Shown: piece after piece, positions 26,497 to 41,288 of the stretch
Layout: each line of letters begins with the position of its first letter
Numbering within the stretch: the first letter of the stretch is position 1
Made by a program: the position numbers and the translations under genes
Assembly: GCF_040182365.1 (NCBI RefSeq)
Contig: NZ_CP144460.1
Coordinates: 2,728,001 to 2,792,000 of the forward strand
Reading direction: 5' to 3'
DNA length: 64,000 nucleotides
Source of the DNA: Xanthomonas sp. 10-10
GTDB taxonomy: Bacteria > Pseudomonadota > Gammaproteobacteria > Xanthomonadales > Xanthomonadaceae
Notes under the pieces: generated by a model
The model's database searches: none
Told to the model about the DNA's origin: nothing
Seen by the model: the letters and a program-made list of their open reading frames with translations, nothing else

Positions 26497-27721
26497 CCCC
26501 ATGACCGAGCAGACTCCCCACCTTCTGGACGATGCACTGTCCGGCCAGCCGCACCGCATCGTCGAACGCGACGGCGTGCGCTACACCTTGCTGGGGACTG
26601 CCCACGTCTCGCTGGCGAGCGTCGCCGCGGTGCAGCGGGCGATCGGCAGCGGCCGCTACGATGCGGTAGCGGTGGAACTGGACGCGCAACGGCTGCAGGC
26701 GCTCAGCGACCCGGACGCACTGGCCCGGCTGGATCTGGTGCAGGTGATCCGCAAGGGGCGCGTGGCCTTGTTTGCCGCCAACCTGGCATTGGCCGCCTAT
26801 CAGCGCCGGCTGGCCAAACAGCTCGGCATCGAGCCGGGCGCGGAATTGAAGGAAGCGGTGAATCTGGCGCGTGCGCAGGGACTGCCGGTGCACCTGATCG
26901 ATCGCGAAGTCGGGCTGACCTTCAAGCGTGCGTCCGGGCGGTTGGGATTCTTCGGCAAGATGAAACTGGCTGGCGGCCTGCTCGGCGGCCTGTTTGCGGC
27001 CGACGAGGTGGGCGAAGAGGAAATCGAGAAGCTCAAGCAGGGCGACATGCTGGAGGCAAGCTTCGGCGACTTCGCCAGCGAGAGCCCGGAGCTGTACGAG
27101 ACGGTGATTGCCGAGCGCGATCGCTACATGGCCACGCGCCTGCGCGAGGAAGCCGGTGCCGGTCAGCACGAAGTGCTGGCGGTCGTCGGCGCCGGACATC
27201 TGGCCGGGCTTGCGCGGCATCTGGAACAGGACACCGATGCGCCCGGCCCGCTGCGCGAGTCGCTGGAATACGTGCAGCAGCGCAAGCGCGTTCCCTGGAT
27301 CACGCTGGGCATCCTGGCGGTGATCATTACCGGCATCGGCATCGGCTTCTGGCGCGGCGGCCTGAGCATGGGCACCGACCTGTTGCTGCAGTGGGCGATG
27401 TACACCGGCGGCCTGGCCGCGCTAGGCTGCCTGCTGGCCGGCAGCCACCCGCTGAGCATCCTGACCGCAGCACTGGTTGCACCGTTCAAGCCGTTCCGGC
27501 TGAGCGTACCGACCGGTGCCTTCGCGGCGTTGGTCGAAGTGCATATGCGCAAGCCGGCTTATGGGGATTTCCTGTCGCTGCGCGACGATGCGCAGACCCT
27601 GCGCGGCTGGTATCGCAATCGCGTGTCGCGGGTGGTGCTGACGTTTCTACTGACCAACTTCGGCAGCATGGCCGGGGTGTGGCTGGCCGGCGTGCAGATC
27701 TTCAATCGCCTGCATGGGTGA
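26489..27721 (+). CDS. TraB-family membrane protein
   Basis: 410 residues from ATG 26489 (an ATG at 26501 is equally possible). The TraB domain spans about residues 25-280: LLGTAHVSLASV, YDAVAVELDAQRL, KEAVNLARAQGLPVHLIDREV and VVGAGHLAGL carry the family's GTAH, E-L-D and GAGH signatures. Several membrane helices follow (about 300-320, 330-350, 355-375, 390-410). TraB/PrgY proteins are linked to pheromone inactivation in enterococci and to mitochondrial roles in eukaryotes; the function in Xanthomonas is unknown. It overlaps the GNAT stop by 8 bases, so the two are coupled. Confidence 0.88.
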   Translation: MNDPMTEQTPHLLDDALSGQPHRIVERDGVRYTLLGTAHVSLASVAAVQRAIGSGRYDAVAVELDAQRLQALSDPDALARLDLVQVIRKGRVALFAANLALAAYQRRLAKQLGIEPGAELKEAVNLARAQGLPVHLIDREVGLTFKRASGRLGFFGKMKLAGGLLGGLFAADEVGEEEIEKLKQGDMLEASFGDFASESPELYETVIAERDRYMATRLREEAGAGQHEVLAVVGAGHLAGLARHLEQDTDAPGPLRESLEYVQQRKRVPWITLGILAVIITGIGIGFWRGGLSMGTDLLLQWAMYTGGLAALGCLLAGSHPLSILTAALVAPFKPFRLSVPTGAFAALVEVHMRKPAYGDFLSLRDDAQTLRGWYRNRVSRVVLTFLLTNFGSMAGVWLAGVQIFNRLHG

Positions 27722-27750
27722 TTGAAAACCCTGTGGTCCATCGACGCAAC

Positions 27751-27816
27751 GTAGGAGCGCACCTGGGCGCGACGGGCGTTATCGATAGTGCGAGTCGCGC
27801 CCGGGTGCGCTCCTAC
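27751..27816. repeat. GTAG-type REP palindrome
   Basis: GTAGGAGCGCACCTGGGCGCGAC pairs with GTCGCGCCCGGGTGCGCTCCTAC over 23 bases with one G:T position, around a 20-base loop. It is the stem-loop type known from Stenotrophomonas and Xanthomonas, and lies between converging genes. A second copy is at 41202-41266. Confidence 0.8.
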
Positions 27817-27826
27817 GACGATGGCG

Positions 27827-28807
27827 TTACGGGGCAGCTGGCTGATCGGGCGCCAGCTGCAAGCGTACCCACACACCGTAGTGATCCGATGCCCAGCGGC
27901 CCTCGGCGTAAGGCGTGTCGAACAGGATGCGGGCCTCGCGGGCGAGCAGGCGGTTCTGCTGGAAGAAGACATGGTCGATCCGCGCCGGCGTGTCGAAGAC
28001 ATGCAGATTCAAGGTGCTGACCGAGGCATCGCTGTTGCGGTGCACGCTGCCATAGCTGTCGCCATAGCCTTTGCGTAGCGCCTCCAGATCCAGCGCGTCG
28101 GCGGCAGTATTGAAATCCCCGGCGATCACCACCGGCGCCTGCGCGCTGGTGGCAGCAATGAAGTCGAGCAGGTCCCCGACCTGGCGCGTGCGCGTTGCGG
28201 TACCGCGCGCATCGGCGCGTTCGTTGAGATGGGTGACGTAGACATTGACCGGCTGGCCATCCATGTCCACCTGCAGGTGCGCGGCAACCCGGTAGTCGTC
28301 CAGCGGTTGCAGCAGGCGCTGATGCCGCGCCAGCACCTTGCGCCGGCTCAGTAACGCATTGCCGTAGCGCTTGGGGGCGCCGGCAGGATCGACCGAGGCG
28401 AAGATCACCTCGTACCCCAGCTTGCGCGCCAGCCAGGCAGCCTGGTTTTCCACGCTGCCGCGCCGCTCGATGGCCTCCTGCAAGGCGATGACATCCGGCG
28501 CCAGTTGCTTGAGTTCCTTGGCGATGTAGGCGCGGCGCGCGGGCCAGTCTTCGCGATCGTGATGCAGGTTGAGCGTGACCAGGGTCAGTCCACGCGCAGA
28601 CGGGACTGAAACTGCCCGCCCTGCCCGGTCGCCGGCAGCCGTAGCGCCGCCCTGCCTTGACTGCACCGCAGCGGTCGATGGCCCAGCTTGACGCCGCTGG
28701 CCTGCCTGCGCGTGTGCGCAGCACACCGCCAGTGCGACGACGACGGCACCCAGGCTGGCGCAGCGCCTTTGCGGCCCTGCCCGTCCCGGCCAAGGCGCAG
28801 GCGTCAT
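27827..28807 (-). CDS. Secreted endonuclease/exonuclease/phosphatase-family protein
   Basis: 326 residues. The N-terminus has a signal peptide (about residues 14-36, ending AHAQA). The EEP fold is complete: VTLNLHHDRED, DVIALQEAIERRGS with the catalytic Glu, YVTHLNERADARGTATR, VIAGDFNTAADALDLE and RIDHVFF, ending GRWASDHYGVWVRL. Such enzymes are Mg2+-dependent phosphodiesterases acting on DNA, lipids or phosphorylated glycans. Its ATG overlaps the stop of the upstream glycosidase (ATGA), so it belongs to the carbohydrate operon, suggesting removal of phosphate-linked substituents from a glycan (inference). Confidence 0.85.
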   Translation of the reverse strand: MTPAPWPGRAGPQRRCASLGAVVVALAVCCAHAQAGQRRQAGPSTAAVQSRQGGATAAGDRAGRAVSVPSARGLTLVTLNLHHDREDWPARRAYIAKELKQLAPDVIALQEAIERRGSVENQAAWLARKLGYEVIFASVDPAGAPKRYGNALLSRRKVLARHQRLLQPLDDYRVAAHLQVDMDGQPVNVYVTHLNERADARGTATRTRQVGDLLDFIAATSAQAPVVIAGDFNTAADALDLEALRKGYGDSYGSVHRNSDASVSTLNLHVFDTPARIDHVFFQQNRLLAREARILFDTPYAEGRWASDHYGVWVRLQLAPDQPAAP

Positions 28808-31800
28808 TGCGTGGCGCGCTCTGCCCGCCGCACCGCGCCGGGCACATCGATCTGCACGGTGGCCGGCATCTGCTGGATCCGCAGCTCGCCATTTTGCCAA
28901 TCCACGGTTTCGCCGTTGACACTGGCCTTGCCGGGTTCGCCCTGATACGGCCAGACAAACACCACGCCACCTGGCGGCATCAGCAGGCCGGGTTGCAACT
29001 GCAGCGACAGCTGCTTTTCGGTGCGCTGCAAGGTGTAGTTGAGGCGGCCGTACGGGGTGCGCAATTCGGCAATGCCGATGCCCTTGCCTTCGAACCAGCG
29101 CGTCGGCGTGCCGGCGGCGATCACGATGCTCTGATCCGACTCGCGCATGTACGCGAACATGTCCAATACCGAACGGACGAAATCCGATGCCACCCAGGCA
29201 TGCGGCAGGTCGCCGACGAAGAACGGCGTGCGCGGCGTGCGAGAGACCACCTCGGCCCACTGATTCCAGGGCTGCGGTGCGCGATCCTTGAAGAAGAATG
29301 CGGTCGCGTCCCAGGCGCGCTCGCGCCAGCCCAGCCGCACGAACGCGGCGACGTTGCGCCACTCGTACGGGGTGTAGTCCTTCCACTCGCGCTTGCCGTC
29401 GCGACGGTCGGAGAACTCTTTCCAATAGCGTTCGAAGGTGTTGGCCAGCAGGTCCTGCGGCAGGCGCTGCTGCTCGCCTCCCGGCGTCAGCGCGATGGTG
29501 GTCGAGGTCGCATCGAAATCGCCGAGCTCGGCCGAACCGGGCAGGAAATCGAGCTTGTGCTCACGCACCGCCGCACCCAGCGAGGCGATCAGGTCGCCGC
29601 TGAACTCGTCGCGGGCAGCGCTGAAACGGGTGACGTCCTCCGGCCTGTCGAGGGCGCCGGCCAGCAGGGTGGCGTCCTTGTAACCTCGCAGTGCCCAGAA
29701 GTTGTCCCAGTACGAATGCACTGGCTTGGCCGAATAGCCCTCATGGCTGATCGACACCGGCATCATTCCGTAGAAGGCCGGGTTGCGCATGAAGTTGTCT
29801 TCGGTGCGCTCGCTGGCGCGCAGCTTTTCCATGTAGTCGAAGGCACCGGCGACATGCGGCCACATCTTCTCCAGGAACGACCTGTCGCCGGTGTAGCGGT
29901 AGTACTCGGCGATGTTGTAGATCAGCTCGCCATGGCTGTCGTTTTCCGGCACCGGGTCGCTGCCGCGGTCGTCCACGCAGCACGGCACCATGCCGTCGGC
30001 AAACTGATACGGCGCAAACCAGTCGACGTAGTCGCGCACCACGTCTTCGCGGCCGAGCCGCAGCAGGCCTTCGGAGATCATTGCGCCGTCGCGGATCCAG
30101 CTGCGCGAGTACGAGCGTGTGCCCGGCTGCAGACGCGGACCGATGCGCGAGATCAGCATGTGCGCCAGCGCGGTACGCAGCGTATCGACCACCGGCTTGC
30201 CCTCGGCCGGCACGCTGATGCGCACGCGATCGAGCTTGCCACGCCATTGCTGGGCCACCTGCCGCTGCGCCTGCTCGGCATCGAAGCCGGCCGGAAGTTG
30301 CGCAGCACCGGTCTGCGGAATCACCAAGGCCACTTCACGTTTCTGGCCGGGTTCCAGCGTCCAGCGATACATCAGCACGCCCGACGCCAGGCCGGTTTCG
30401 TCCTTGACCTGGGTGACGGTGGGCGGCGTGGCGGCGGTGAGATGGCTGACATCCATACCGCTATCGAAGGCGCTGGCAAAGCCGGCATCCGGCCGCTGCA
30501 CGGCGAACACGCGCGGCTTGCCGTTAACGCTGACCTGCGCGCCGTCCACCGCCAGTTGTTCGATCCGGCTGACGCCACCCAGGGTATTGAGGAACTGCGC
30601 CGGCGGGTTGACCTGGAACGGCCGCACTGCCAACGCCAGGGTGAAGTCGCGCGCCTGCTTGCCGGTGTTGTGCAGCTGATAGCGTGCGACCAGTTGCGCC
30701 TGATCCGGGGTGCCCTGCACGAACGCGGTGACGCGCAGGTTCATCAGGTCGTGATGCCAGTCGACGCTGGGGATCGGCAGGTAATCGTCCTGCAGGCTTT
30801 GCTCGCTGCTGACGTCGGACCAGTGCAATACTTTGCCGCCGGTGACCACGAACGGCTCGATGCTGAAGCCGCCCTTGCCCACTTCCACCGCGCCGTCCTC
30901 GCCGATCAGGCCCTGCTCGGTGCCGCCATCCAGACCCAGGATGGTCCAGTACGGCTGCTCGCCGGAAAACCCCCGTGGATAACTGCCGCGCGGCAACTGA
31001 CCGGCCAGCGATTTGATGAAGTCGTTGGGCGTTGCCGCAAATGCCAGCGGCTGCAGCTGGACCTCTTTGATGCCGTAGCGCCAGTTCGGGCCGTCCTTCA
31101 GGTCGAAACGCAGGTAGCGCGCTTCGGTGTCCGGCAGTGCCAGCCAGTCGGTCCCACCGGCGCCGGCGGTGACGGTGCGCAGATCGCGCCAGCTGCGGCC
31201 ATCGGCCGATGCACGCACTGCGTACTGCGAGGCCTGCAGGCCGGGCACCCACTGCACCACCGCGCCCCCGAATTCGCGCACCTTGCCCAGATCCAGCGTG
31301 ACGGTCTGTTGCTTCACCGCGCCGCTGAGCCAGAAGGTGTCGGGCTTGCCATCGGCCAGGCGTTGTTCCAACGCCGGCGCCGTGTCGGTGATCGCCTCGG
31401 CCTTGAGCGGCGAGGTGTCTTCCGGCGGCAATGGGGTGAGCGTCAGGCGGTCGAAGCACACCGTGCCCTTGCCGCCGACCTTGTTGTAGATGGTGAACTC
31501 GACATCGGCGCTGCTGCGCAGCTGCTTGTCCGCACCCGGTCCCCAGGCCTTTTCGATGTTGCGCTTGCGGTAGTTGAAGGTGGTCCAGTTCTTCGGGAAA
31601 TTGAAGCCCGGCCGGTTGACCCACCACACGTTGTCGCCGCTGGCATCGATCAGCTTGAGCTGCAGATCGTTGGACGGCGATTCGCCACGCAGCGAAAACC
31701 CGATGCGATAGTTCTCGGGGTAGTCGAGCGGCAGTGTGCGGCGGATGCCGACGTAGCCGGACACGCCGTTGAAGTTGTAATCCAGGCACAGCGCATGCCC

Positions 31801-31971
31801 ACCGGAGGGCGTTGCCACCGGGCGCAGCGAGCCGCTGACCTGGTTGGATACCACCAGACGCCAGGCGCCGATGTCGTTGAAGCCGTCGAGCACGCGCTCC
31901 TGCGCCTGCGCCGCGCCCGCAGACGTGACGAAAGCGGCCATGGCACACAGTCGCAGGAACACTGGTTTCAC
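28804..31971 (-). CDS. Secreted discoidin/six-hairpin glycosidase-like protein
   Basis: 1055 residues from GTG 31971, which overlaps the TGA of the upstream permease; the alternative ATG is 11 codons in. A signal peptide ends around AGAAQAQ. A carbohydrate-binding-like region (~30-170), an F5/8-type C (discoidin) domain (~180-320: VTLDLGKVREFGGAVVQW, DTEARYLRFDLK) and a large C-terminal (alpha/alpha)6 domain (~330-1055) follow, with YSRSWIRDGAMISEGLL, GMVPCCVDDRG, NDSHGELIYNIAEYYRYTGD. The last part looks like six-hairpin glycosidases acting on glucans or mannans; the exact GH family cannot be fixed by eye. It is the second-last gene of the operon. Confidence 0.8.
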   Translation of the reverse strand: MKPVFLRLCAMAAFVTSAGAAQAQERVLDGFNDIGAWRLVVSNQVSGSLRPVATPSGGHALCLDYNFNGVSGYVGIRRTLPLDYPENYRIGFSLRGESPSNDLQLKLIDASGDNVWWVNRPGFNFPKNWTTFNYRKRNIEKAWGPGADKQLRSSADVEFTIYNKVGGKGTVCFDRLTLTPLPPEDTSPLKAEAITDTAPALEQRLADGKPDTFWLSGAVKQQTVTLDLGKVREFGGAVVQWVPGLQASQYAVRASADGRSWRDLRTVTAGAGGTDWLALPDTEARYLRFDLKDGPNWRYGIKEVQLQPLAFAATPNDFIKSLAGQLPRGSYPRGFSGEQPYWTILGLDGGTEQGLIGEDGAVEVGKGGFSIEPFVVTGGKVLHWSDVSSEQSLQDDYLPIPSVDWHHDLMNLRVTAFVQGTPDQAQLVARYQLHNTGKQARDFTLALAVRPFQVNPPAQFLNTLGGVSRIEQLAVDGAQVSVNGKPRVFAVQRPDAGFASAFDSGMDVSHLTAATPPTVTQVKDETGLASGVLMYRWTLEPGQKREVALVIPQTGAAQLPAGFDAEQAQRQVAQQWRGKLDRVRISVPAEGKPVVDTLRTALAHMLISRIGPRLQPGTRSYSRSWIRDGAMISEGLLRLGREDVVRDYVDWFAPYQFADGMVPCCVDDRGSDPVPENDSHGELIYNIAEYYRYTGDRSFLEKMWPHVAGAFDYMEKLRASERTEDNFMRNPAFYGMMPVSISHEGYSAKPVHSYWDNFWALRGYKDATLLAGALDRPEDVTRFSAARDEFSGDLIASLGAAVREHKLDFLPGSAELGDFDATSTTIALTPGGEQQRLPQDLLANTFERYWKEFSDRRDGKREWKDYTPYEWRNVAAFVRLGWRERAWDATAFFFKDRAPQPWNQWAEVVSRTPRTPFFVGDLPHAWVASDFVRSVLDMFAYMRESDQSIVIAAGTPTRWFEGKGIGIAELRTPYGRLNYTLQRTEKQLSLQLQPGLLMPPGGVVFVWPYQGEPGKASVNGETVDWQNGELRIQQMPATVQIDVPGAVRRAERATQ

Positions 31972-32804
31972 CCCTTCACACTCCCCAGCAGAAGACCTTG
32001 GATGTAGTAACGCTGCAGCGCCAGGAACAATAGCAGCACCGGAATCACCGTCACCACCGCGCCGGCCATCATCAATTCCACGTCCATGATGTGCTCGCGC
32101 GACAACGCCGCCAGCGCCACCGGCAAGGTGTATTGCTCCTGATCGGTCAACACGATCAGCGGCCACATGAAATCGTTCCACGAGCCCATGAAGGTGAAGA
32201 TGGTCAGGGTGACCAGCACCGGCTTGAGCATCGGCAGCACGATCTGGAAGAAGATCCGCATCTCGCTGGCGCCGTCGATGCGGGCGGCCTCGATCAACTC
32301 GTCGGGAATGCTGCGCGCGTACTGGCGCACCAGGAAGATGCCGAACACGGTGGCCAGTGCCGGCACCACCACCCCGCCGATGTTGTTGACCAGGTGCAGC
32401 TGCTTCATCAGCAGGAACAGCGGCAGCATCGCCACCTGTGCCGGAATCACCAACGCCGCCATCAGGATCTTGAAGATGCGCTCGCGGCCGACGAACTGCA
32501 GCTTGGCGAAGGCATAGCCGGCCATGGTGTTGATCAGCAGCGAGCCCAACGTGATCAGCCCGGACACCAGCAGGCTGTTGGCGAAGTTGCGCGCCATGCC
32601 GGTGCGCGCGAACAGCTCGTGGTAGTTGGCGGTGGTGAACGCCGACGGCAGCATCGGCGGCGGAAACCGGCTGGCTTCGCCAGTGGGCATGAACGACACC
32701 GACAGCATCCATAGCAGCGGCGCCAGGCTGATCAAGGCCAGCACCAGCAAGCCGCCGTTGATCAGCACGCCGTTCCAGCGCGATTCGCCGACATCACGAC
32801 TCAT
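31968..32804 (-). CDS. Sugar ABC transporter permease, MalG type
   Basis: 278 residues with six membrane helices. The EAA loop is ELIEAARIDGASEMRIFFQIVLP. The start at 32804 (ATG) overlaps the upstream permease stop (ATGA), replacing the longer frame that runs upstream. With the other permease and the binding lipoprotein it forms a CUT1-type importer for oligosaccharides. The gene ends in GTGA, which also begins the glycosidase gene. Confidence 0.95.
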   Translation of the reverse strand: MSRDVGESRWNGVLINGGLLVLALISLAPLLWMLSVSFMPTGEASRFPPPMLPSAFTTANYHELFARTGMARNFANSLLVSGLITLGSLLINTMAGYAFAKLQFVGRERIFKILMAALVIPAQVAMLPLFLLMKQLHLVNNIGGVVVPALATVFGIFLVRQYARSIPDELIEAARIDGASEMRIFFQIVLPMLKPVLVTLTIFTFMGSWNDFMWPLIVLTDQEQYTLPVALAALSREHIMDVELMMAGAVVTVIPVLLLFLALQRYYIQGLLLGSVKG

Positions 32805-33685
32805 ATCAGGTCCTTCTTGCGGCCGAAGCGCAGCATCACGGTGGTCACCGCCAGGATGATCAGGAACAACAGGAACGCCACCGCCGACGCGCGGCCGAGG
32901 TTCCACCACTTGAAGCCTTCCTCGAACATGAAATACAGCACGCTGACGGTGCTCTGCAGCGGGTCGCCGCGGGTCATCACGTAGGGCTCGGCAAACAGCT
33001 GGAAATAGCCGGAGATGGTGATCACCCCGACCACCATCAGCACCGGGCCGAGCATCGGCAGGGTGATATGCAGGAACTGCTTCCAGCGTGAGGCGCCATC
33101 GATGCGCGCAGCCTCATACAGGTCCTGCGGAATCGCCTGCAGCCCGGCCAGGAAGATCACCATGTTGTAGCCGAAGTTCTTCCATACCGCGAACAGCATG
33201 ATGGTGGGCATGGCCCAGCGCGGATCGCCCAGCCAGTCGATGGGGGCGATGCCCAGATGGCTCAGGCCGAAGTTCACCAGGCCGTACTTGATGTGGAACA
33301 GGTAGCGCCAGATCACCGCCACCGCCACCAGCGTGGTCACCACCGGCGCGAACAAGGCGGTGCGGAACAGCGCCTTGAAGCGCGAGGCCTTGGCGTTGAG
33401 CAGCAAGGCCGCACCGAGCGACACGCCGATCGACATCGGCACACCCAGCAACACGAAGTAGGTGGTGTTCCACAACGACTTCCAGAACAGCGGCGTCTGC
33501 AGCAGATCGATGTAATTGCCCAGGCCGACGAAGCGCAGGTGGCTGCTGTCGGCCAATGCGTACAGGTCGAAGTCGGTGACGCTGAGCACCAGCGCGGCGA
33601 ACACCGGCACGCCGAAGAACATGCCCAGCACCAGGATCGACGGGGCTGCGAATACCCAGCCGGCGACGGAATTGCGCTTCATCAT
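32801..33685 (-). CDS. Sugar ABC transporter permease, MalF type
   Basis: 294 residues, six membrane helices, EAA loop DLYEAARIDGASRWKQFLHITLP. It is the first of the two inner-membrane permeases of a CUT1 oligosaccharide importer. ATG 33685 (or the next codon, also ATG) overlaps the end of the binding-protein gene by four bases. No ATPase gene is found anywhere in the cluster, so a shared MsmK-like ATPase must act in trans (inference). Confidence 0.95.
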   Translation of the reverse strand: MMKRNSVAGWVFAAPSILVLGMFFGVPVFAALVLSVTDFDLYALADSSHLRFVGLGNYIDLLQTPLFWKSLWNTTYFVLLGVPMSIGVSLGAALLLNAKASRFKALFRTALFAPVVTTLVAVAVIWRYLFHIKYGLVNFGLSHLGIAPIDWLGDPRWAMPTIMLFAVWKNFGYNMVIFLAGLQAIPQDLYEAARIDGASRWKQFLHITLPMLGPVLMVVGVITISGYFQLFAEPYVMTRGDPLQSTVSVLYFMFEEGFKWWNLGRASAVAFLLFLIILAVTTVMLRFGRKKDLI

Positions 33686-35064
33686 CGTGCCGCCTCCTTG
33701 TCCGCTGCTGCGGCTGGCGTCGCGGCTGGTGGTGCGTCTGGTCGTGCGTCTGACCCACCAGCAGGTGCAGTGGATTCACCAGCGGGGCCGACATGCCCGC
33801 CCTCCTGTTCGAAGATCCAGCGGCGCTTGGCCAGTATCTCGTCCACGCGTTTGTCCAGTTCCTGCACGGCGGCCTCGTGCGATTGACCGCCGCGCACCAC
33901 GCGCTCGGTCACCAGGCGCATTTCCTGCACGATGCGCTCCCACTCCAGCACCTTGGGCGTGGCCTTGACCCGCTCCAGCTGATCGCCGAAGGCGTGCGCC
34001 AGTTCGTCGTTGGCCAGCGATGGCAGCTTCCAGGTGCTACGACGCGGCGGCAGGTCGCCGATGATGGCGTGGAAGCGCGCCTGTACCGTGGGCTGCGACA
34101 GGTATTCGATCAGCTTCCAGCTGGCATCCTTGTGTTGCGACGACTTGAAGATCACCAGGCTGGAGCCGCCGGCAATGCCCGCGCCCAGGCCGTTGGGTCC
34201 CGGCAGCGGCGCGGTGCCCCACTTGCCTTCCATGCCCGGCGGCTGGCGCAGCTTGAACTCGCGCACGTTCCACGGGCCGGACAAGTAGAACGCGTAGTAA
34301 CCGTTGAAGAATTCGTACCAGACGTTGGAGACCTGGGTCTCGGACACCTTCGGCGCCCATCCGTTCTGGTACATGGTGTCGTAGAAGCCCAGCGCCTTGC
34401 GGAAGCCTTCGCCGCGGAAGTTGCCGTAATTGTCGTGGTCGCGCAGCAGGCGGTCGTCCTGCTGCAGCGCGAACGACAGCTGCTGCTCGAACTCGTTGAG
34501 CGGCATCAGGATGGCGTAGCGGTCCGGGCCGACCTTGCGCTTGATCGCTGCCATCACCTGTTCCATCTCGGCCCAGGTCTTGGGCATTTCGTTGTAACCG
34601 GCCTCGCGCAGCAGATCCTTGCGATAGAACAGCAGCCGGGTGTCCACATACCACGGCACGCCATACAGGGTGCCATCGACCAGATTGGTGTCCCACACGC
34701 CGGGGAAATAATCCTGCGGGTCGACGATGCTGGACCGCGCCACGTATGGCTGCATCGGCTCCAGCGTATCCAGCAGGGCGAACTCCGGCAGCCAGGTGTT
34801 GCCGAGTTGGCACACGTCCGGCAAGCCGTCGGCGGCGAAGGCGGTCAGCAGTTTCTCGTGCGCCGCCGTCATCGGGATGTTCTGCACATCGACCTGGATG
34901 TCCGGGTTCTGCTTCTCGAAGTCGGCCACCAGTTCGGCAACCACTTCGGCCTCCTTGCCCATGGCCCAGAAGCGCACGGTGGTCTTGGCGGGATCGGAGC
35001 GGTCACATCCCGCCGCACCTGCACACAGGGCGGCGGCCAACATCAACAGTTTCAAAAGGCGCAC
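33682..35064 (-). CDS. Sugar ABC transporter substrate-binding lipoprotein
   Basis: 460 residues. Signal peptide with a likely lipobox ending at C20 (CAGAAGC). The periplasmic binding fold is of the extracellular solute-binding family 1: TTVRFWAMGKEAEVVAELVADFEKQ-like start, DVCQLGNTWLPEF, YYAFYLSGPWNVREF, GGSSLVIFKSS. The C-terminus carries an unusual ~50-residue Pro/Ala/Glu-rich tail not seen in typical members. It begins four bases after the GH144-like gene and overlaps the first permease. It should deliver oligosaccharides to the two permeases. Confidence 0.93.
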   Translation of the reverse strand: MRLLKLLMLAAALCAGAAGCDRSDPAKTTVRFWAMGKEAEVVAELVADFEKQNPDIQVDVQNIPMTAAHEKLLTAFAADGLPDVCQLGNTWLPEFALLDTLEPMQPYVARSSIVDPQDYFPGVWDTNLVDGTLYGVPWYVDTRLLFYRKDLLREAGYNEMPKTWAEMEQVMAAIKRKVGPDRYAILMPLNEFEQQLSFALQQDDRLLRDHDNYGNFRGEGFRKALGFYDTMYQNGWAPKVSETQVSNVWYEFFNGYYAFYLSGPWNVREFKLRQPPGMEGKWGTAPLPGPNGLGAGIAGGSSLVIFKSSQHKDASWKLIEYLSQPTVQARFHAIIGDLPPRRSTWKLPSLANDELAHAFGDQLERVKATPKVLEWERIVQEMRLVTERVVRGGQSHEAAVQELDKRVDEILAKRRWIFEQEGGHVGPAGESTAPAGGSDARPDAPPAATPAAAADKEAAR

Positions 35065-35067
35065 GGA

Positions 35068-36687
35068 TTACTCGGGTTTTTGGCGTTGCGAGGGGTCTTG
35101 CTGGGCCTGGGCGGCGGCGGCACGCGATTCGGCCATGCCCAGCGAGCGTGCGGCGGCCTTCTGCTCGTCCTTTTGCGGCAACGGCTGCGGCTCGCCCTCG
35201 GGGGTGAGCCAGCCGCCGGTGAAGCCGGCGCGTTCCAGACCGGCGCGGATGTAGGGGTTCTTCTTCATCACCGTCCAGACGAATTCGTTCTGGTAGTTGG
35301 CGATCATCGCCAGGATCGGGCCCTGGTCGATGGCGATGTAGTCGCTGGCCACCCAGCCGCGGTCCGGCACCATGCGCCCGGTCTTGAGCGGGATGTCGTA
35401 GTTGAAGCTGGGGTTGAACGAATCCAGGAAGCCGTAGCTGGAATACAGGAAGTCGCCATAGCGCTTGTGCATCTCTTCGGTGGCCGGGATCACTACTTCC
35501 GGGGCGAATACGATCGAGGAGATCGCCGCCGATGGCACGATGGTGCCGTCGTCGAAGTTCTCACGCAGGCCGGCGCCGCGCGAGGAGTAGTGGCGGAACT
35601 GGCGCTGCTCGCCACGATATTCCTGGCTGGTGTTCTGCGGGCCGTCGCCAGCGGTCAGGCCCCAGACGTTCTCGCCGTAGTCCTTCCACTTCATCGGGTT
35701 GTCGATGGCGTAGTCGCGCTGGGCCAGGGTGGCGCGGCGGCTGTTGAGGAAATAGTCGATGCCGCGTTCGCGCATGTACTGGTCCTGGATATCGCGGAAG
35801 TCGATCCAGACATGGCTGTACTGGTGGCCGAACAGCGGGCCGAAGGACAGGTACTCCTGCCCCTGGTAGACGCCCCAGTCGTTGTTGTAGGTCCGCGTCC
35901 AGCTGGTCCACGCCTCCGGGTCCACGCCATGGGTAGGTGAGCCCAGCGCGAGGATGTACAGCATCATCGCTTCGTTGTATCCCATCCAGTCGTGGTCGAT
36001 GAAGCCGCTCTCGGGGAACCAGCCCATCGAGATCAGTGGTGCGCGTTGCTGCAGCCAGCGCCAGTCCACGCGCTTGTACAGCGTGTCGGCGATCTGGCGG
36101 ATTTCTTTTTCGCGCGGGTCGTCGCCGTCGTAATACGACTGGGTGAACAACACGCCCATCATCAGCAGCGCGGTGTCCACGCTCGACAGCTCGACCCAGC
36201 TGTCGTAGCGGTTGCCCTGCTGCATATCCAGAAAGTGATAGTAGAAGCCCTTGTAGCCGGCCCTACCGGTCCGCTGCGGCCCCATGGGCGCATCGCGGAA
36301 GAATTTCAGCGTGGTCAGGGTGCGATCGATCGCCTGATTGCGGCTGACCCAGCCATTTTCGATGCCGATCGGATACGCGGTCAGCGCAAACCCCACCGAG
36401 GCAATGCTGGCGAACGGACGCGATGGAAATCGATCCGGCGCCAGTCCGTTGAGTTCGTTGGTGGTGTCCCAGAAGAACTGGAAGGTGCGTCGCTCGATGT
36501 CCGAAAACAGGGGCGGCAACGGCGGTTTGACCGGCTTGGGGGGGATTTGCGCTTCGATCAGGATCACTTTTACGGGTGCCTTTTTTTCAGCGACCTTGGG
36601 CTCCTCGGCCTGCTTGCAGGACGCCAGCAACAGCGCTCCCAGCATGAATGGAACGATCAACCACCGCGATGTGTTGCCCCTGTTCAT
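35068..36687 (-). CDS. GH144-like glucoamylase-family lipoprotein
   Basis: 539 residues from ATG 36687 (the frame is open to 36723). The start is a lipoprotein signal with a classic lipobox LLASC. A Lys/Pro-rich linker leads to a glycoamylase-like (PF10091) domain of ~430 residues, for example ERRTFQFFWDTTN, DRFPSRPFASIASVGFALTAY, GYKGFYYHFLDMQQG, SWVELSSVDTALLMMGVLF, GWFPESGFIDHDWMGYNEAMM, FGHQYSHVWIDFRDIQD, NENVWGLTAGDGP-like. Characterised GH144 enzymes cut beta-1,2-glucan. It leads the ABC operon and has a perfect operator palindrome 15 bases in front of its start codon. Substrate assignment is inference. Confidence 0.85.
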   Translation of the reverse strand: MNRGNTSRWLIVPFMLGALLLASCKQAEEPKVAEKKAPVKVILIEAQIPPKPVKPPLPPLFSDIERRTFQFFWDTTNELNGLAPDRFPSRPFASIASVGFALTAYPIGIENGWVSRNQAIDRTLTTLKFFRDAPMGPQRTGRAGYKGFYYHFLDMQQGNRYDSWVELSSVDTALLMMGVLFTQSYYDGDDPREKEIRQIADTLYKRVDWRWLQQRAPLISMGWFPESGFIDHDWMGYNEAMMLYILALGSPTHGVDPEAWTSWTRTYNNDWGVYQGQEYLSFGPLFGHQYSHVWIDFRDIQDQYMRERGIDYFLNSRRATLAQRDYAIDNPMKWKDYGENVWGLTAGDGPQNTSQEYRGEQRQFRHYSSRGAGLRENFDDGTIVPSAAISSIVFAPEVVIPATEEMHKRYGDFLYSSYGFLDSFNPSFNYDIPLKTGRMVPDRGWVASDYIAIDQGPILAMIANYQNEFVWTVMKKNPYIRAGLERAGFTGGWLTPEGEPQPLPQKDEQKAAARSLGMAESRAAAAQAQQDPSQRQKPE

Positions 36688-36701
36688 CCGCCCCCCACTT
36701 G

Positions 36702-36715
36702 TGTAATCGATTACA
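36702..36715. promoter_or_regulatory. LacI-type operator palindrome before the GH144-led operon
   Basis: TGTAATCGATTACA is a perfect 14-bp palindrome with a central CG, the form of LacI-family operators. It fits TGTAANCGNTTNCA together with the two sites at 40945-40958 and 40991-41004. It lies in the 100-base spacer between the TonB receptor and the GH144-like gene. Confidence 0.7.
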
Positions 36716-36787
36716 TCCCGCACGCCAACCTACCCTATCCAAGCGCCGAGTTCGACCGCCCTGGCCTGCGCCAGGGCGGTCGGGTCC

Positions 36788-39775
36788 TCACCAGTTCAGG
36801 CCAAAGGCCAGCCGGAAGGTCCGCATCGGCGATGCCAGCACGCCGGTTGGCGTGCCGTAAGCCGTGTTCAAGTCACCGAGTGTCCCGGTCTCGCCGTTAA
36901 AGTCGGCGTAGTTCACCCAATTGAACACGTTGAGGATATCCGCACGGACGTTGAATTTGACACCGCCGCCGGTATCCCATTCTTTATTGGCCGCAATGCT
37001 GAACTCCTTGTAGCCCAGCGTGCCGTCCGGCTTGAACTGGACGATGTAGCACTGGTCGTTGCCGGCCACGCAGTTCTGCCCGTAGCGCGCGGTCTGGCTG
37101 GCCAGCGACAGCTTGCCGGACAGCTTGACCTCGTACGGCAGCTCGTAGATGCCGGTGACCACCAGACGGTTCTTGGCGATGCCACCGGCCTCGCGCCAGC
37201 CGTAGTCCTGGACGCGCTCGCGATCCAGCGCGTAGTGCTCGCCGAACTGGCGGTTCTCCTTGGCATCGGAATAGGTGTAGGCCACGGTCAGGCCCCAACC
37301 GGATTCCTCATCGAAGGGCTTTTCGACCTGCAGGGCCAGCTGGTTGTTGCGGGTCTCCACGCCATTCGTGCCCAGCACGATCGCGCTATAGCCGTCCGGG
37401 CCGTCGTTCGGCGAACCGGAGGTGGTACCCGGCAGGAAGAACGAGCCGTCCGGCAGACGGTTACCGCGCACGAACGCGAAACCGTCGTGGCTTTCGATGC
37501 GGCTCAGGGTCACGTCGGTGAACCAGTCCTGGCCCCATAGCGGCACCATGTTGCGCATGCCGATGCTGAATTGGTCGGAGTACGGGGTCTTGATGTTGTT
37601 GTCGATCAGATAGATTTCCCGCCCGCCGCCGCCAGCGCTGGTCGCCGCCAGTGCATCGAGCCCTTCCTGGGTGTTGTAGGCCGGATTCCATGCGGTGCAC
37701 GGGTCGCCCAGGCAGGCCTGGCCGTTCTGGGCGTTGGGGTTGGTGAAGTAGTAGCTATAGGACTTGAACGAATTGTTGAGCTGTTCGAGCGCCAGGTAAT
37801 CGAAGATGTTGCGGTCGTAGGCACGGCCGGCACCGCCGTAGATCACGTGGGCCTGGTCGCCAAACAGGTCGTACGAGGCACCAAGACGCGGCTGCCAGGC
37901 ATTCTTGAACGCCTTGCGGTTGTTGCCGGTGCTGATGAAGTTGTTGATGTCGTAGTTGGCATTCTGCAGGTTCGGCCAGTTCTGCAACGCACCGGCTACA
38001 TCGGACGGCGTGACGAAGTCCAGGAACGCAGGGGTTTCTTCGTAGTCGTAGCGCACGCCCAGGTTCAGGGTCCAGTGCTCGTTGACCTCCCAGTCGTCCT
38101 GCAGATAGATGCCGTACTGCTTGTTATTGGACACCACCGAACCACCACCTTCGACCAGCGGCGCACCGAAGCGCACCCGGTACGGCGTTTCGAGATCGCC
38201 GAGGATGTTGTAGTAGTACTGCGGGTTGGCCGGATTGAACTGGGTCGAATCCAGATCGATGCTCTTGAACTTCACGCCCATCTTGACGGTGTGCGCGCCG
38301 TGCCATTCCAGGCTGTTCAAGGTCAGGTCGTCCTGGAAGGTCCAGCCCTTCTGCCCCTTGCGCTGGAAGCTGCTGCCGGCGCCCGCGGACAGCACTTCGT
38401 CCTCGATTCCGCGCACTGGCGCATAACTCAGCACATAACCGGTGCCGTTGTTGATCGGCGCCTGGTTCCAGAACGCGCTCTCGTAGCTGAGGTTGGCTTC
38501 GTTGAGGAAGTTGGCACCGCTGTACTGCCAACGCAGGTTGGCGCGCTTTTCTTCCTGGCCGTTGATGCTGCCGTGCTCGAGGGTCGAGGTGCCGCCGACA
38601 TCGTTGAGCTCGTCTTCCTTGCGGTACTTGCCACTCAGCTCGAACAGGTTGTTCTCGCCGATGGTCCAGTCGATCTTGCCGAAGTACAGGTCTTCCTTGA
38701 ACGGGGTGCTGTAGGTGGCAACCAGCGGCTGCAGCTGCGCAGGCAACTGGTCGACGCGGTCGGAATAGATCGAACCGGGGATCACCACGTTGGGGGTGGT
38801 GTATTCCTTGGCCTCATAGGCGATGAAGAAATGCGCCTTGTCCTTGAGGATCGGGCCGCTGAAGGTGGCGCCGTACTGGGTCTCCTCGAAGTCGTCGCGC
38901 ACGCCGGCCTTCTTCTCCAGCGGGCTCTCTTCGCGCCAGCCGTCGTTGCTGGTGTCCCAGAAGAAGCTGCCGTGGAAATCGTTGGTGCCGGACTTGGACG
39001 AGGCCACGATGGCCGCGCCGCTGACCTGGTCGAACTCGGCCTTGTAGTTTGAGGTGATGACCTTGTATTCGCCGATCGCCGACTGCGGGAACGGGTTGCC
39101 GCGGCTGGAGTCCTGGCCGCTGACGCCGCCGGTGAGCACGTAGTTCTTCTGGCTCACGCCGTCGATATAGACGTTGGTGCCTTCGGCCGAGGTGGCGCCC
39201 GAACGGACCTTGGTGGTGCCGTTGGCATCGCGGGTGAACTGCACGTTCGGCACGGTGTCGGCCAGTTCCAGGAAGTTGCGCGTGGCACGCGGCAGGTTCT
39301 GGATCTGCACGTTGGAGATGTACGTGGCGTTCTCGGAGGTGCGCGTTTCCACCAGCACCGGCGGCGCCTTGACCTGCACCGCGTCCAGCGTGGTGGCGTT
39401 ACCAGCTTCGGCCGTGGCCGGCTCGCCGCCGACGCCCAGGTTCAAGGTCGCCGTCTGGCCGACCTGCACGGTCACATTCTGCGAGCTGGTCTGACCATTG
39501 GCGGTGACGTCGATGCGGTACGAGCCCGGCGGCAGACCGCCGACCGAATAACCGCCGTTGCTGACCTGTACGGTGCGGGTCAGGCCGGTCGCCAAGTTGG
39601 TGGCCGTCACCTGCGCCTGGGCGGCGGGAGCGGAGTCGACGCTGACCTGGCCGCGGATGGTCGCGGCAGTGCTCTGCGCAAATGCAGGCGCGGCGCCCAG
39701 CAGCAGGCAGCTGGCCAGAGCACAGCTGAGCAGCTTGCGCGACGGGCGGGCGGAATGGGGGTGGTGGTGGCGCAT
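36788..39775 (-). CDS. TonB-dependent receptor with carboxypeptidase-regulatory-like N-terminus (Oar-like)
   Basis: 995 residues from ATG 39775, preceded by a strong GGAGGGACCA ribosome site; the open frame reaches 15 codons further. A signal peptide (ending APAFA) is followed by a CarboxypepD_reg-like/Cna-B-type Ig domain (~27-110), a plug domain with TRTSENATYISNVQIQNL and KVRSGATSAEGTNVYIDGVS, and a ~750-residue barrel ending in the outer-membrane signature MRTFRLAFGLNW with a terminal aromatic. This is the SusC-like/Oar class common in Xanthomonas carbohydrate-utilisation loci. It imports a glycan at the outer membrane in a TonB-dependent manner. Confidence 0.93.
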   Translation of the reverse strand: MRHHHPHSARPSRKLLSCALASCLLLGAAPAFAQSTAATIRGQVSVDSAPAAQAQVTATNLATGLTRTVQVSNGGYSVGGLPPGSYRIDVTANGQTSSQNVTVQVGQTATLNLGVGGEPATAEAGNATTLDAVQVKAPPVLVETRTSENATYISNVQIQNLPRATRNFLELADTVPNVQFTRDANGTTKVRSGATSAEGTNVYIDGVSQKNYVLTGGVSGQDSSRGNPFPQSAIGEYKVITSNYKAEFDQVSGAAIVASSKSGTNDFHGSFFWDTSNDGWREESPLEKKAGVRDDFEETQYGATFSGPILKDKAHFFIAYEAKEYTTPNVVIPGSIYSDRVDQLPAQLQPLVATYSTPFKEDLYFGKIDWTIGENNLFELSGKYRKEDELNDVGGTSTLEHGSINGQEEKRANLRWQYSGANFLNEANLSYESAFWNQAPINNGTGYVLSYAPVRGIEDEVLSAGAGSSFQRKGQKGWTFQDDLTLNSLEWHGAHTVKMGVKFKSIDLDSTQFNPANPQYYYNILGDLETPYRVRFGAPLVEGGGSVVSNNKQYGIYLQDDWEVNEHWTLNLGVRYDYEETPAFLDFVTPSDVAGALQNWPNLQNANYDINNFISTGNNRKAFKNAWQPRLGASYDLFGDQAHVIYGGAGRAYDRNIFDYLALEQLNNSFKSYSYYFTNPNAQNGQACLGDPCTAWNPAYNTQEGLDALAATSAGGGGREIYLIDNNIKTPYSDQFSIGMRNMVPLWGQDWFTDVTLSRIESHDGFAFVRGNRLPDGSFFLPGTTSGSPNDGPDGYSAIVLGTNGVETRNNQLALQVEKPFDEESGWGLTVAYTYSDAKENRQFGEHYALDRERVQDYGWREAGGIAKNRLVVTGIYELPYEVKLSGKLSLASQTARYGQNCVAGNDQCYIVQFKPDGTLGYKEFSIAANKEWDTGGGVKFNVRADILNVFNWVNYADFNGETGTLGDLNTAYGTPTGVLASPMRTFRLAFGLNW

Positions 39776-39878
39776 TGGTCCCTCCAGGGATCGGTACAGA
39801 TTGTTGTTGTGGTGTTGCAAACCAGCAGGAACGACCGCTGCGGGGGAGCAGCGGGAGCGGACAGAACGTCCGCGAAAG

Positions 39879-40901
39879 TCAGGGGCCGGACTCGCCGGCG
39901 CCGCAGGAAGTCCGTATCACCAGCTCGGGCGTCAGCAGTTGGCGGCTACCGTCGTCATGGCCGGGCAGTTCCACCAGCCGCATCAATCGGGTCATCGCCT
40001 GTTCGCCCAGACGCGCGATGCTGACCCGCATCGTGGTCAGCGCCGGGTGGACGAAGCGCGCCAGCGGAATGTCGTCGAACCCTGCCAATGCCACATCGCC
40101 AGGTACCGACACCTCGGCCTGCGCAAACGCGTACAGGCAGCCGAGCGCGGTCATGTCGTTGGCGGCGAACACCGCATCGGGCAATGCGCCGGCGGCCAGC
40201 ATCGCCAGCCCGGCGCGATGCCCGGAGGCTTCGTCGAAGTCGCCGGCATACTCGATTCCCTGCGCCTGGTCGCCGAATCCGGCAATCGCGTCGCGGAAAC
40301 CGCGCAGGCGTTCGCGCGCATCGAAATTGAGCGAAGGCCCGCCGATGAAGGCGATGCGCCGGTGGCCCGCACCCAACAGGTGCTCGGTCATGGCCATGGC
40401 GCCGGCATGGTCATCGATGCTCAGCACCGGATAACCGGCGCCGGGCAGATGGGCATTGATCAGCACGGTGGGCAGCGCCTGCGGCAGGTTGTCGGTGAGA
40501 AATCCCGGCTGCTCGGCATACGGAGAGAGCACCAGCAGGCCGTCGACGCGCCCGCGCATCGACCGCAGCGCCCTGCCCTGGGCTTCCGGGTCGCCGTGAT
40601 AGCTGGACACCAGCAGGTGCTGGCCGGCAGCGCGCGCCGCGCCGTCGATGCCGCGGATCAACTCGGAAAAGAATTCGCCGTACAGGTCAGGCAGCACCAC
40701 GCCCAGGGTCTGCGACCGCCGGCTGCTCAGGCTACGGGCTGCCGCATGCGGGCTGTAGCGCAGCCGTTCGGCCACGTCCATGACCTGCTGACGCACCGGC
40801 CCGGCAACGTTGTCGTGCCCATTGAGCGCACGCGACACGGTGGCGACAGAGACCTGCGCTTCCCGAGCGACATCTTTGATGGTGACCGCACCCTTGGCCA
40901 T
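39879..40901 (-). CDS. LacI-family transcriptional regulator
   Basis: 340 residues from ATG 40901 (the frame runs upstream to 40931). N-terminal helix-turn-helix with VTIKDVAREAQVSVATVSRALNG, hinge YSPHAAARSLSSRRSQTLGVVLPD, and a periplasmic-binding-like sensor domain (VDGLLVLSPYAEQ, HRRIAFIGGPS, AVFAANDMTALG, VALAGFDDIPLARFVHP). It lies just upstream of the TonB receptor, separated by about 100 bases. Two inverted copies of its probable operator are in its own promoter region, so autoregulation is likely. Confidence 0.96.
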   Translation of the reverse strand: MAKGAVTIKDVAREAQVSVATVSRALNGHDNVAGPVRQQVMDVAERLRYSPHAAARSLSSRRSQTLGVVLPDLYGEFFSELIRGIDGAARAAGQHLLVSSYHGDPEAQGRALRSMRGRVDGLLVLSPYAEQPGFLTDNLPQALPTVLINAHLPGAGYPVLSIDDHAGAMAMTEHLLGAGHRRIAFIGGPSLNFDARERLRGFRDAIAGFGDQAQGIEYAGDFDEASGHRAGLAMLAAGALPDAVFAANDMTALGCLYAFAQAEVSVPGDVALAGFDDIPLARFVHPALTTMRVSIARLGEQAMTRLMRLVELPGHDDGSRQLLTPELVIRTSCGAGESGP

Positions 40902-40944
40902 TCGTGTCGCCCTCCGCGACCGACTTCCCAAAACTGGCGCGGAC

Positions 40945-41004
40945 TGTAAGCGTTTTCATAAGCAGGCGTAAACCCCCATCTTCACACCCGTGAAAACGCT
41001 TACA
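40945..41004. promoter_or_regulatory. Two inverted LacI-type operators upstream of the regulator gene
   Basis: TGTAAGCGTTTTCA (40945-40958) and its exact reverse complement TGAAAACGCTTACA (40991-41004) flank 32 bases. Their centres are 46 bp apart, and they lie 44-103 bases upstream of the regulator start codon. Both halves fit TGTAANCGNTTNCA, as does the palindrome at 36702. Confidence 0.75.
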
Positions 41005-41288
41005 GATCAAGCATCTGCAAGTGATGAATGCGTGAATGAATGTGCTGCGACGCAACAAACCCGCACCCACGTCTCCACAAACGAAGGTGAACGGCGATCA
41101 CGGTTGGGGATGGCTGGGCCTGCTCATGGATCGGGAGCGGAGGATGGCTTGCCAATCGGTCGGTCGCTCCGGCGCTGCCCAACTTTGCAATGTCCTCCTG
41201 CGCAGGAGCGCACCGGGGCGCGACGGCTTTACCGGTAAGGCCCGTCGCGCCCAGGTGCGCTCCTACGACAGCGGTCTGTCGGATTGGC
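41005..41288. other. Spacer between the carbohydrate locus and bolA
   Basis: About 280 bases beyond the operators and up to the bolA stop codon. It contains a REP palindrome at 41202-41266 and no supported gene. Confidence 0.6.
41202..41266. repeat. GTAG-type REP palindrome, second copy
   Basis: GCAGGAGCGCACCGGGGCGCGACGG pairs with CCGTCGCGCCCAGGTGCGCTCCTAC apart from two mismatches (base 2 and one in the centre of the stem). It is near-identical in layout to the copy at 27751-27816. Both are in spacers flanking the carbohydrate locus, about 13.4 kb apart. Confidence 0.75.

Follow-up and report, generated by a model that had tools for sequence, protein, structure and literature searches.

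Described TonB-dependent receptor (TBDR) carbohydrate utilisation loci, or CUT loci, combine a TBDR, a degradative enzyme, an inner-membrane transporter and a regulator (PMC1790865). Papers are cited here for the passages that concern these genes and glucans. In Xanthomonas campestris pv. campestris, the enzyme XcSGL (XCC2207) is specific for beta-1,2-glucan. Its activity was shown experimentally and its complex with the beta-1,2-glucooligosaccharide Sop7 was solved (PMC12102758). In Listeria innocua, the solute-binding protein (SBP) Lin1841 binds Sop3-5 (PMC12369401). The window analysed here is a stretch of 64,000 nucleotides from a complete 5.17 Mb Xanthomonas chromosome (G000:C1:2728001-2792000). 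It holds a locus in which a LacI-family regulator, a TBDR, a GH144 enzyme and an ABC importer lie side by side, as in CUT loci. The regulon is real and conserved. It is of the CUT kind, in a variant form that includes one unclassified enzyme, named GHX here. It is very probably a LacI-controlled regulon for beta-1,2-glucan utilisation.

The passages found in the open-licence PMC literature searched do not describe a breakdown or uptake route for beta-1,2-glucan in Xanthomonas. A term search of PMC10714752 (starch/glucan RNA-seq) and PMC9040725 (Tn-seq) gave nothing on the locus in the text it covered. A preliminary description of the window had proposed a TonB-type carbohydrate locus of eight genes. 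The composition of the locus and the domains of the TBDR agree with this, and all eight reading frames are open on the minus strand at the coordinates that the description gave. Orthology, gene order, operator conservation and the associations of GHX were established by computation.

Genes of the locus and their substrate

The GH144 lipoprotein (35068-36687) matches PF10091 (Glycoamylase) with 302.1 bits against a gathering score of 27 and contains the lipobox LASC-K, as expected from its earlier naming as a GH144-like lipoprotein. It aligns with XCC2207 (8xul_A, from X. campestris pv. campestris) over 523 residues with 1201 bits and an E-value of 0. Residues E239, F286 and Y367 are identical in the two proteins and carry the same numbers. 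In XcSGL these residues define the beta-1,2-glucanase clan (PMC12102758). By this alignment, the window GH144 is an orthologue of the proven endo-beta-1,2-glucanase. A lipobox-like pattern is present in 78 of 78 GH144 orthologues. The outer-membrane sorting of lipoproteins is read from the +2 residue, and Asp occupies this position of the lipobox-like sites in 1/78 GH144 and 5/74 SBP sequences. These counts were not taken as grounds for placing the SBP in either membrane.

The SBP of the importer (33682-35064; SBP_bac_1 domain) is a lipoprotein and an orthologue of PDB 3UOR (Xac-MalE). Its best matches among solved structures are 3uor (2.5e-283), Lin1841 (5ysb; 1e-68, 235 bits) and GacH (4.7e-35, 124 bits). 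Among solved SBPs of known ligand, it is nearest to Lin1841. The two permease genes are permF (32801-33685; UgpA/MalF-like) and permG (31968-32804; MalG/UgpE-like). Both products match PF00528 (BPD_transp_1), and their NCBIfam matches to UgpA (130 bits) and UgpE (134 bits) are below the cut-off.

An importer of this kind could instead be a maltose/trehalose importer (MalEFG), as the label of 3UOR suggests, and the SBP does match GacH and other maltose binders. This alternative is very unlikely. The binding specificity of 3UOR is listed as unknown, beside its annotation as a putative maltose/trehalose binder (PMC7676653). The maltodextrin CUT locus of X. campestris pv. campestris lies elsewhere, with XCC2469 as its TBDR (PMC1790865). 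Among the solved relatives Lin1841 reaches 235 bits and the next one 124, and the adjoining genes encode beta-1,2-glucan enzymes. Maltose/trehalose import was rejected as the principal function on the likeness to Lin1841 and the separate maltodextrin locus. The SBP, and 3UOR with it, probably binds beta-1,2-glucooligosaccharides rather than the sugars of its label. The substrate class is read as beta-1,2-glucan because GH144 is orthologous to a proven enzyme and the SBP is similar to one that binds beta-1,2-glucooligosaccharides. The preliminary description had left the substrate as a list of beta-1,2-, beta-1,3- and beta-1,6-glucans and mannans; its first member is retained, and the open list proved too weak.

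The TBDR (36788-39775) contains CarboxypepD_reg, OMP_b-brl_4 and TonB_dep_Rec_b-barrel domains, and the Pfam scan gives no row for a Plug domain. XCC2208, named once in the main text of PMC1790865, is described there as a TBDR without a canonical plug. The window TBDR is taken as its counterpart, by its position next to the XCC2207 orthologue and by this description. The regulator (39879-40901) contains PF00356 and Peripla_BP_3 domains, in agreement with its earlier naming as a LacI regulator.

The remaining genes are GHX (28804-31971) and a gene for a secreted endonuclease/exonuclease/phosphatase-fold enzyme (EEP; 27827-28807), which is the last of its unit. The EEP/GHX, GHX/permG and permF/SBP junctions overlap by 4 bases, and the ATG of permG at 32804 gives the same overlap at the permG/permF junction. 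SBP and GH144 are 3 bases apart. The six genes from GH144 to EEP thus either overlap by 4 bases or sit 3 bases apart, which bears out the six-gene unit proposed earlier. Gaps of 100 and 103 bases separate GH144 from TBDR and TBDR from lacI. A perfect 13-bp hairpin without a T run (36753-36782, minus strand) lies between the TBDR stop and the operator before GH144. It is absent from the output of the terminator scan, which demands a T run, and is a possible transcript boundary. Because the hairpin and the operator (36702-36715) lie in this gap, TBDR and lacI are probably a unit separate from the six-gene transcript. No sigma-70 consensus promoter was found in 27500-41100.

Conservation of the operator and of gene order

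With up to 2 mismatches allowed, the window holds three copies of the palindromic pattern TGTAANCGNTTACA, at 36702, 40945 and 40991, and 0.4 copies are expected. The site at 36702-36715, TGTAATCGATTACA, is a perfect palindrome that lies 28 bases before the GH144 start and is the sole perfect match in the genome. The other two, TGTAAGCGTTTTCA (40945-40958) and TGAAAACGCTTACA (40991-41004), precede lacI. Perfect 14-bp palindromes alone were rejected as a criterion for operators, being too strict. The locus has what defines a LacI repressor regulon, namely a regulator gene and a palindromic site that is conserved both before this gene and at target genes. The TGTAANCGNTTACA operator is predicted to be bound by the window LacI.

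Gene order was compared in two sets. GHX is present in 100 of 198 Xanthomonadaceae genomes and in 29 of 54 genera. Forty stretches were picked by hand from the places of GHX in this survey, and 34 of them hold a GHX orthologue. GH144, SBP and a permease are present in all 34, and their order is the same throughout. The other six hold only a GHX paralogue. In a separate scan with GHX as bait, 80 named Xanthomonadaceae loci were retrieved and their gene content was scored by tblastn. The recurring order is LacI-TBDR-GH144-SBP-permeases-GHX. GHX matches to named Xanthomonas records are 93-100%, which gives the genus of the window genome. The same order does recur in other Xanthomonas genomes, as the preliminary description had suggested checking. 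GHX (by construction) and permG are found in all 80 loci, SBP in 79, GH144 in 78, TBDR in 73 (a remnant only in L090), LacI in 70 and permF in 68. The count for permF is too low because the two permeases compete for hits, and some LacI misses stem from the flank limit. The two loci in which GH144 is missing break off at a contig end. In the 6 kb behind GHX, no further same-strand gene recurs among clusters present in at least 4 loci, in a mechanical comparison of often overlapping open reading frames (ORFs).

The operator survey covered the 80 loci and the window. Regions shorter than 60 bases were skipped (100 bases for ATPase regions), and shuffled regions gave the expectation. Before lacI, the operator is found within 2 mismatches in 70/70 regions, and 0.4 are expected; all 70 are in fact within 1 mismatch. 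Before GH144, it is found within 2 mismatches in 63/79 regions, and 0.15 are expected. It precedes SBP in 1/79, GHX in 0/81 and EEP in 0/39 regions, and two coding control regions give 0/79 and 0/73.

The locus itself contains no ATPase gene. The sole OB_MalK match of the genome is the product of an ATPase gene that has glk and edd as neighbours and lies about 79 kb from the locus. An operator lies 115 bases before this MalK-type ATPase gene, on the side of the divergent glk and edd homologues. In loci with an ATPase gene close behind GHX, the region upstream of the ATPase homologue has the operator within 2 mismatches in 29/32 cases, and 0.05 are expected. Within 10 kb behind GHX, the 80 loci hold Edd in 35, Glk in 35, an ATPase homologue in 33 (only 33% identical in L137) and GH1 in 10. 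In the window genome the Edd/Glk/ATPase block is at this distance of about 79 kb, but it stands close behind GHX in L130, L124, L128 and others.

A further operator overlaps the opening codons of the gene for a secreted GH3 beta-glucosidase (G000:C1:1889967-1892225). Among the nine GH3 loci of at least 64% identity, the window's own included, the site is near the start in seven, elsewhere in one and absent from one. The first codons are an unusual place for a repressor site, and the site recurs in orthologues. The earlier term "self-contained" does not fit the locus, since the ATPase and GH3 genes that carry the same operator lie elsewhere.

A chance neighbourhood of unrelated genes is extremely improbable. 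The gene order is kept in 80 named loci, and the operators are common to genes of the locus and the ATPase gene. The preliminary description had offered this explanation should homologues never co-occur elsewhere, and the synteny shows that they do. It had also called the combination of genes unusual. The combination is common in Xanthomonadaceae and only EEP is lineage-specific, so the claim comes down to the lineage-specific addition of that gene.

The TBDR is lost or reduced in six loci that retain GH144-SBP-permeases-GHX (L090, L094, L097, L116, L125 and L127). Their hosts are X. melonis, X. cucurbitae, a Stenotrophomonas, X. albilineans, strain GPE 39 and a Pseudoxanthomonas. In L094, L116 and L125, lacI is lost or reduced along with the TBDR. 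The operator is kept in L090, L097 and L127, where only the TBDR is affected. In X. albilineans and GPE 39, neither lacI nor TBDR was found, and no operator was found.

One operator-like site of the window genome (G000:C1:5007618-5015264; L167) lies in a group with a LacI paralogue (63%), two TBDR paralogues (46-47%) and a tryptophan-halogenase-like gene. GHX paralogues of about 34% identity adjoin LacI and TBDR genes, but not GH144, in L067 and L068, from two g7 genomes. The other four fetched paralogue stretches are without a LacI or TBDR neighbour of the GHX paralogue. Given the L167 site and the groupings in L067 and L068, a sister regulon may exist.

GHX and the origin of the glucan

GHX encodes a secreted enzyme of 1055 aa. 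Pfam gives an F5_F8_type_C domain and a sub-threshold GDE_C match (20.2 bits, cut-off 21), and the catalytic part passes no Pfam or NCBIfam cut-off. The predicted model (pLDDT 83.5, pTM 0.82) consists of an N-terminal beta domain, the F5/8 type C module, a beta-supersandwich, an (alpha/alpha)6 barrel and a C-terminal beta domain. Residues ~330-1040 of the model have the fold of the beta-supersandwich and (alpha/alpha)6-barrel glycosidase/phosphorylase superfamily. D756 and E907, putative catalytic residues by analogy with GH15, are invariant. The earlier naming as a large discoidin/six-hairpin glycosidase holds for the discoidin (F5/8 type C) module and the predicted barrel; the catalytic part has no profile above cut-off.

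Three family assignments were rejected. For GH15, Pfam gives no row at E 0.001 and TIGR01577 scores 34 bits against 820.7. For GDE_C (amylo-alpha-1,6-glucosidase), the score is below the gathering score. For GH94, there is no profile match at E 0.001, though GH94-type chains share the fold. Among the weak sequence neighbours of GHX, dextran dextrinase has an E-value of 0.008 and isomaltose glucohydrolase one of 0.03. Glucodextranase and dextran dextrinase are presumably both of the GH15 family. With isomaltose glucohydrolase, these GH15-type alpha-1,6 enzymes are 11-15% identical to GHX, which has the N-terminal beta domain and the F5/8C module in addition. Alignment A3 covers 40 of the 80 loci, with L140, L142, L152, L154 and L158 excluded because their tblastn ranges run past the stop codon and the remaining loci either not put forward or set aside for size. 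Alignment A4 covers 21 catalytic domains. From the domain scan, the model and synteny, GHX is a candidate for a new glycoside hydrolase family.

In a class-level survey of 369 genomes, 47 have some GHX match. Full-length matches (>900 bits) are present in 12 genomes, four within the family Xanthomonadaceae and eight outside it. In three of the eight outside genomes, all of one family, GHX adjoins a 1,2-beta-oligoglucan phosphorylase gene (SOGP; PF21958/PF21250), and one of these three neighbours matches 5h3z at 6.7e-172. In another (G369, L208:5466-12496), two MdoG (opgG/opgD-type) genes precede GHX, all three on one strand, and together they may form an operon for the synthesis or trimming of glucan. 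In G391, GHX occurs with SBP, permeases, ATPase, GH94 and GH1 genes. One genome has GHX with permeases at a contig end. Because of these neighbourhoods, GHX is assigned with fair confidence as a beta-1,2-glucan enzyme. The adjoining SOGP or MdoG genes in 4/8 outside genomes also add to the case for beta-1,2-glucan as the substrate class.

The glucan could come from other bacteria or from the cell itself. XccOpgD of X. campestris makes the alpha-1,6-cyclised beta-1,2-glucohexadecaose CbG16a (PMC11228985). In the window genome, the MdoG family is represented by one gene, and one open frame of NdvB size carries PF10091. Across the 198 genomes, 76 have both a GHX orthologue and MdoG, 8 have MdoG only, 22 have GHX only and 92 have neither. 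G016 and G091 carry only the ~34% paralogue and are counted here as without GHX, which lowers the GHX total from 100 to 98. By genus, 16 have both, 2 have MdoG only, 13 have GHX only and 23 have neither (p 3.6e-4, uncorrected for ancestry).

In one reading, GHX acts on linear beta-1,2-glucooligosaccharides (Sop_n), either as an exo-acting beta-1,2-glucanase or as an enzyme that processes them in another way, and the locus scavenges the beta-1,2-glucans of other bacteria. This is plausible, if somewhat short of probable. The SOGP neighbourhood in three genomes, from one family, and the ABC importer and GH94 neighbours in G391 are consistent with it. GH94-type phosphorylases and a cyclic glucan synthase are among the best Foldseek hits of the GHX model. 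The 22 genomes with GHX and without MdoG and the TBDR hit in 73/80 loci also argue for a foreign glucan; such genomes and the retention of the TBDR in most loci argue against turnover of the cell's own glucan.

In the other reading, which we hold tentatively as a possibility, the regulon mainly degrades the cell's own CbG16a or NdvB-type cyclic glucan. GHX would then be the alpha-1,6-glucosidase for the one linkage that GH144 and a beta-glucosidase would leave. The weak glycosidase neighbours of GHX by sequence are named as alpha-glycan enzymes, which counts against action on linear Sop_n. With the GDE_C match, dextran dextrinase and isomaltose glucohydrolase among them, they point instead to the alpha-1,6 linkage. 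The production of CbG16a by XccOpgD (PMC11228985), the joint occurrence of MdoG and GHX and the two MdoG genes before GHX in G369 support turnover of own glucan. So do the six loci that keep GH144 to GHX with the TBDR lost or reduced, as expected for a periplasmic substrate.

As GHX has alpha-1,6-glucan enzymes among its weak sequence neighbours, it may open the single alpha-1,6 bond in the cyclic glucan of Xanthomonas. A more specific proposal is that GHX founds a new glycoside hydrolase family that hydrolyses the single alpha-1,6 bond of alpha-1,6-cyclised beta-1,2-glucan, and that the regulon serves both disposal of the cell's own ring glucan and uptake of short Sop_n. We regard this proposal as rather unlikely.

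Proposed pathway and comparison with known systems

We infer the transport route, the sites of action, the binding and inducer of LacI and the reaction of GHX as follows. The GH144 lipoprotein would cut beta-1,2-glucan, the cell's own or a neighbour's, to short Sop_n chains, and the TBDR would carry the glucan or Sop_n across the outer membrane. In the periplasm, GHX and the operator-bearing secreted GH3 beta-glucosidase would trim or debranch the chains. The SBP and the two permeases would import oligosaccharides, and the MalK/UgpC-type ATPase, whose gene is about 79 kb distant, would supply the energy. Glucose would pass to glucokinase and the Entner-Doudoroff pathway, whose genes glk and edd are divergent from the ATPase gene with the operator between them. 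LacI would repress the set via the TGTAANCGNTTACA sites and be released on binding a glucan fragment.

EEP is an accessory of the locus, outside its conserved core. It matches PF03372 (Exo_endo_phos) with 91 bits against a gathering score of 24.5. Its AlphaFold2 model (pLDDT 70.9; residues 8-70 below 50) has the EEP fold, with TDP2 as best Foldseek hit (7e-17). Profile and fold searches lead to TDP2, nocturnin and sphingomyelinase-like enzymes and indicate no substrate. Residues E111, D231, N233, D278, D308 and H309, which we take to be the EEP catalytic residues, are invariant in 29 EEP rows, the window included. EEP is found in 38/80 loci (a remnant in L094), in Xanthomonas near the window species, [Pseudomonas] boreopolis and many Stenotrophomonas loci. 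A role as a core step was ruled out, as EEP was not found in 42/80 loci, of which L145 ends 132 bases behind GHX and is uninformative. As a guess, EEP might remove a phosphodiester-linked substituent from the glucan; we know of no such substituent on a Xanthomonas glucan.

Several findings weigh against a LacI-controlled beta-1,2-glucan regulon. The operator was not found before GH144 in 16/79 regions, and it precedes the TBDR in only 10/72 regions, none of them from Xanthomonas. The X. cucurbitae locus L094 keeps the operator, and no lacI was found there. The window genome has nine TGTAANCGNTTACA sites within 1 mismatch; some may be chance occurrences or belong to other LacI proteins, because the backwards control pattern gives 2. 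Three operator-like sites, next to genes for an aldolase, a GH92 and a PD40 protein, may be chance. A search of the window genome for the GH1 known from other genera, run without a positive control, did not find it. In the outside genomes G264 and G332, the scan of the 4 and 3 ORFs next to GHX found no beta-1,2-glucan gene. Finally, the published annotation of the SBP is that of a putative maltose/trehalose binder (PMC7676653).

CbG16a is reported to suppress pathogenesis-related (PR) proteins and callose (PMC11228985). For Sop3, the trimer of the backbone, a review (PMC11842490, citing Fuertes-Rabanal 2024) reports that it sets off plant immunity. If GHX opens the ring at its alpha-1,6 bond, the regulon would be a dedicated disposal system for the immune-suppressing ring glucan of Xanthomonas itself, and would take up short Sop_n, of which Sop3 reportedly alarms plants. 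The locus supplies candidates for the steps from glucan cutting to glucose. Through one operator it is linked to the missing ATPase and a beta-glucosidase. The solved and unexplained structure 3UOR (Xac-MalE) is re-assigned to a ligand that can be tested, and GHX, as yet unclassified, turns up next to beta-1,2-glucan genes in other families as well.

Gram-positive bacteria have no TonB receptor, and two of the most similar systems are Gram-positive. Listeria innocua lin1839-1841 (SOGP, GH3 and a Sop-binding SBP) likewise combines a Sop-binding SBP with a beta-glucosidase. It relies on phosphorolysis of Sop_n by SOGP (PMC12369401), whereas the window locus has GH144 and GHX. Streptomyces griseus SGR_2422-2427 likewise has a Lin1841-like SBP, permeases, an endo-beta-1,2-glucanase (GH193) and a beta-glucosidase (GH1) (PMC12369401). 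Its GH193 and GH1 enzymes stand where the window regulon has GH144, GH3 and GHX. In the passages considered here, the XcSGL paper deals with the isolated enzyme and does not discuss the locus, the regulator or GHX (PMC12102758). The Xanthomonas CUT loci for sucrose (sux), maltodextrin, xylan and pectin have the same make-up of TBDR, enzyme, transporter and regulator (PMC1790865). Their substrates are plant sugars, whereas that of the window locus would be a bacterial glucan.

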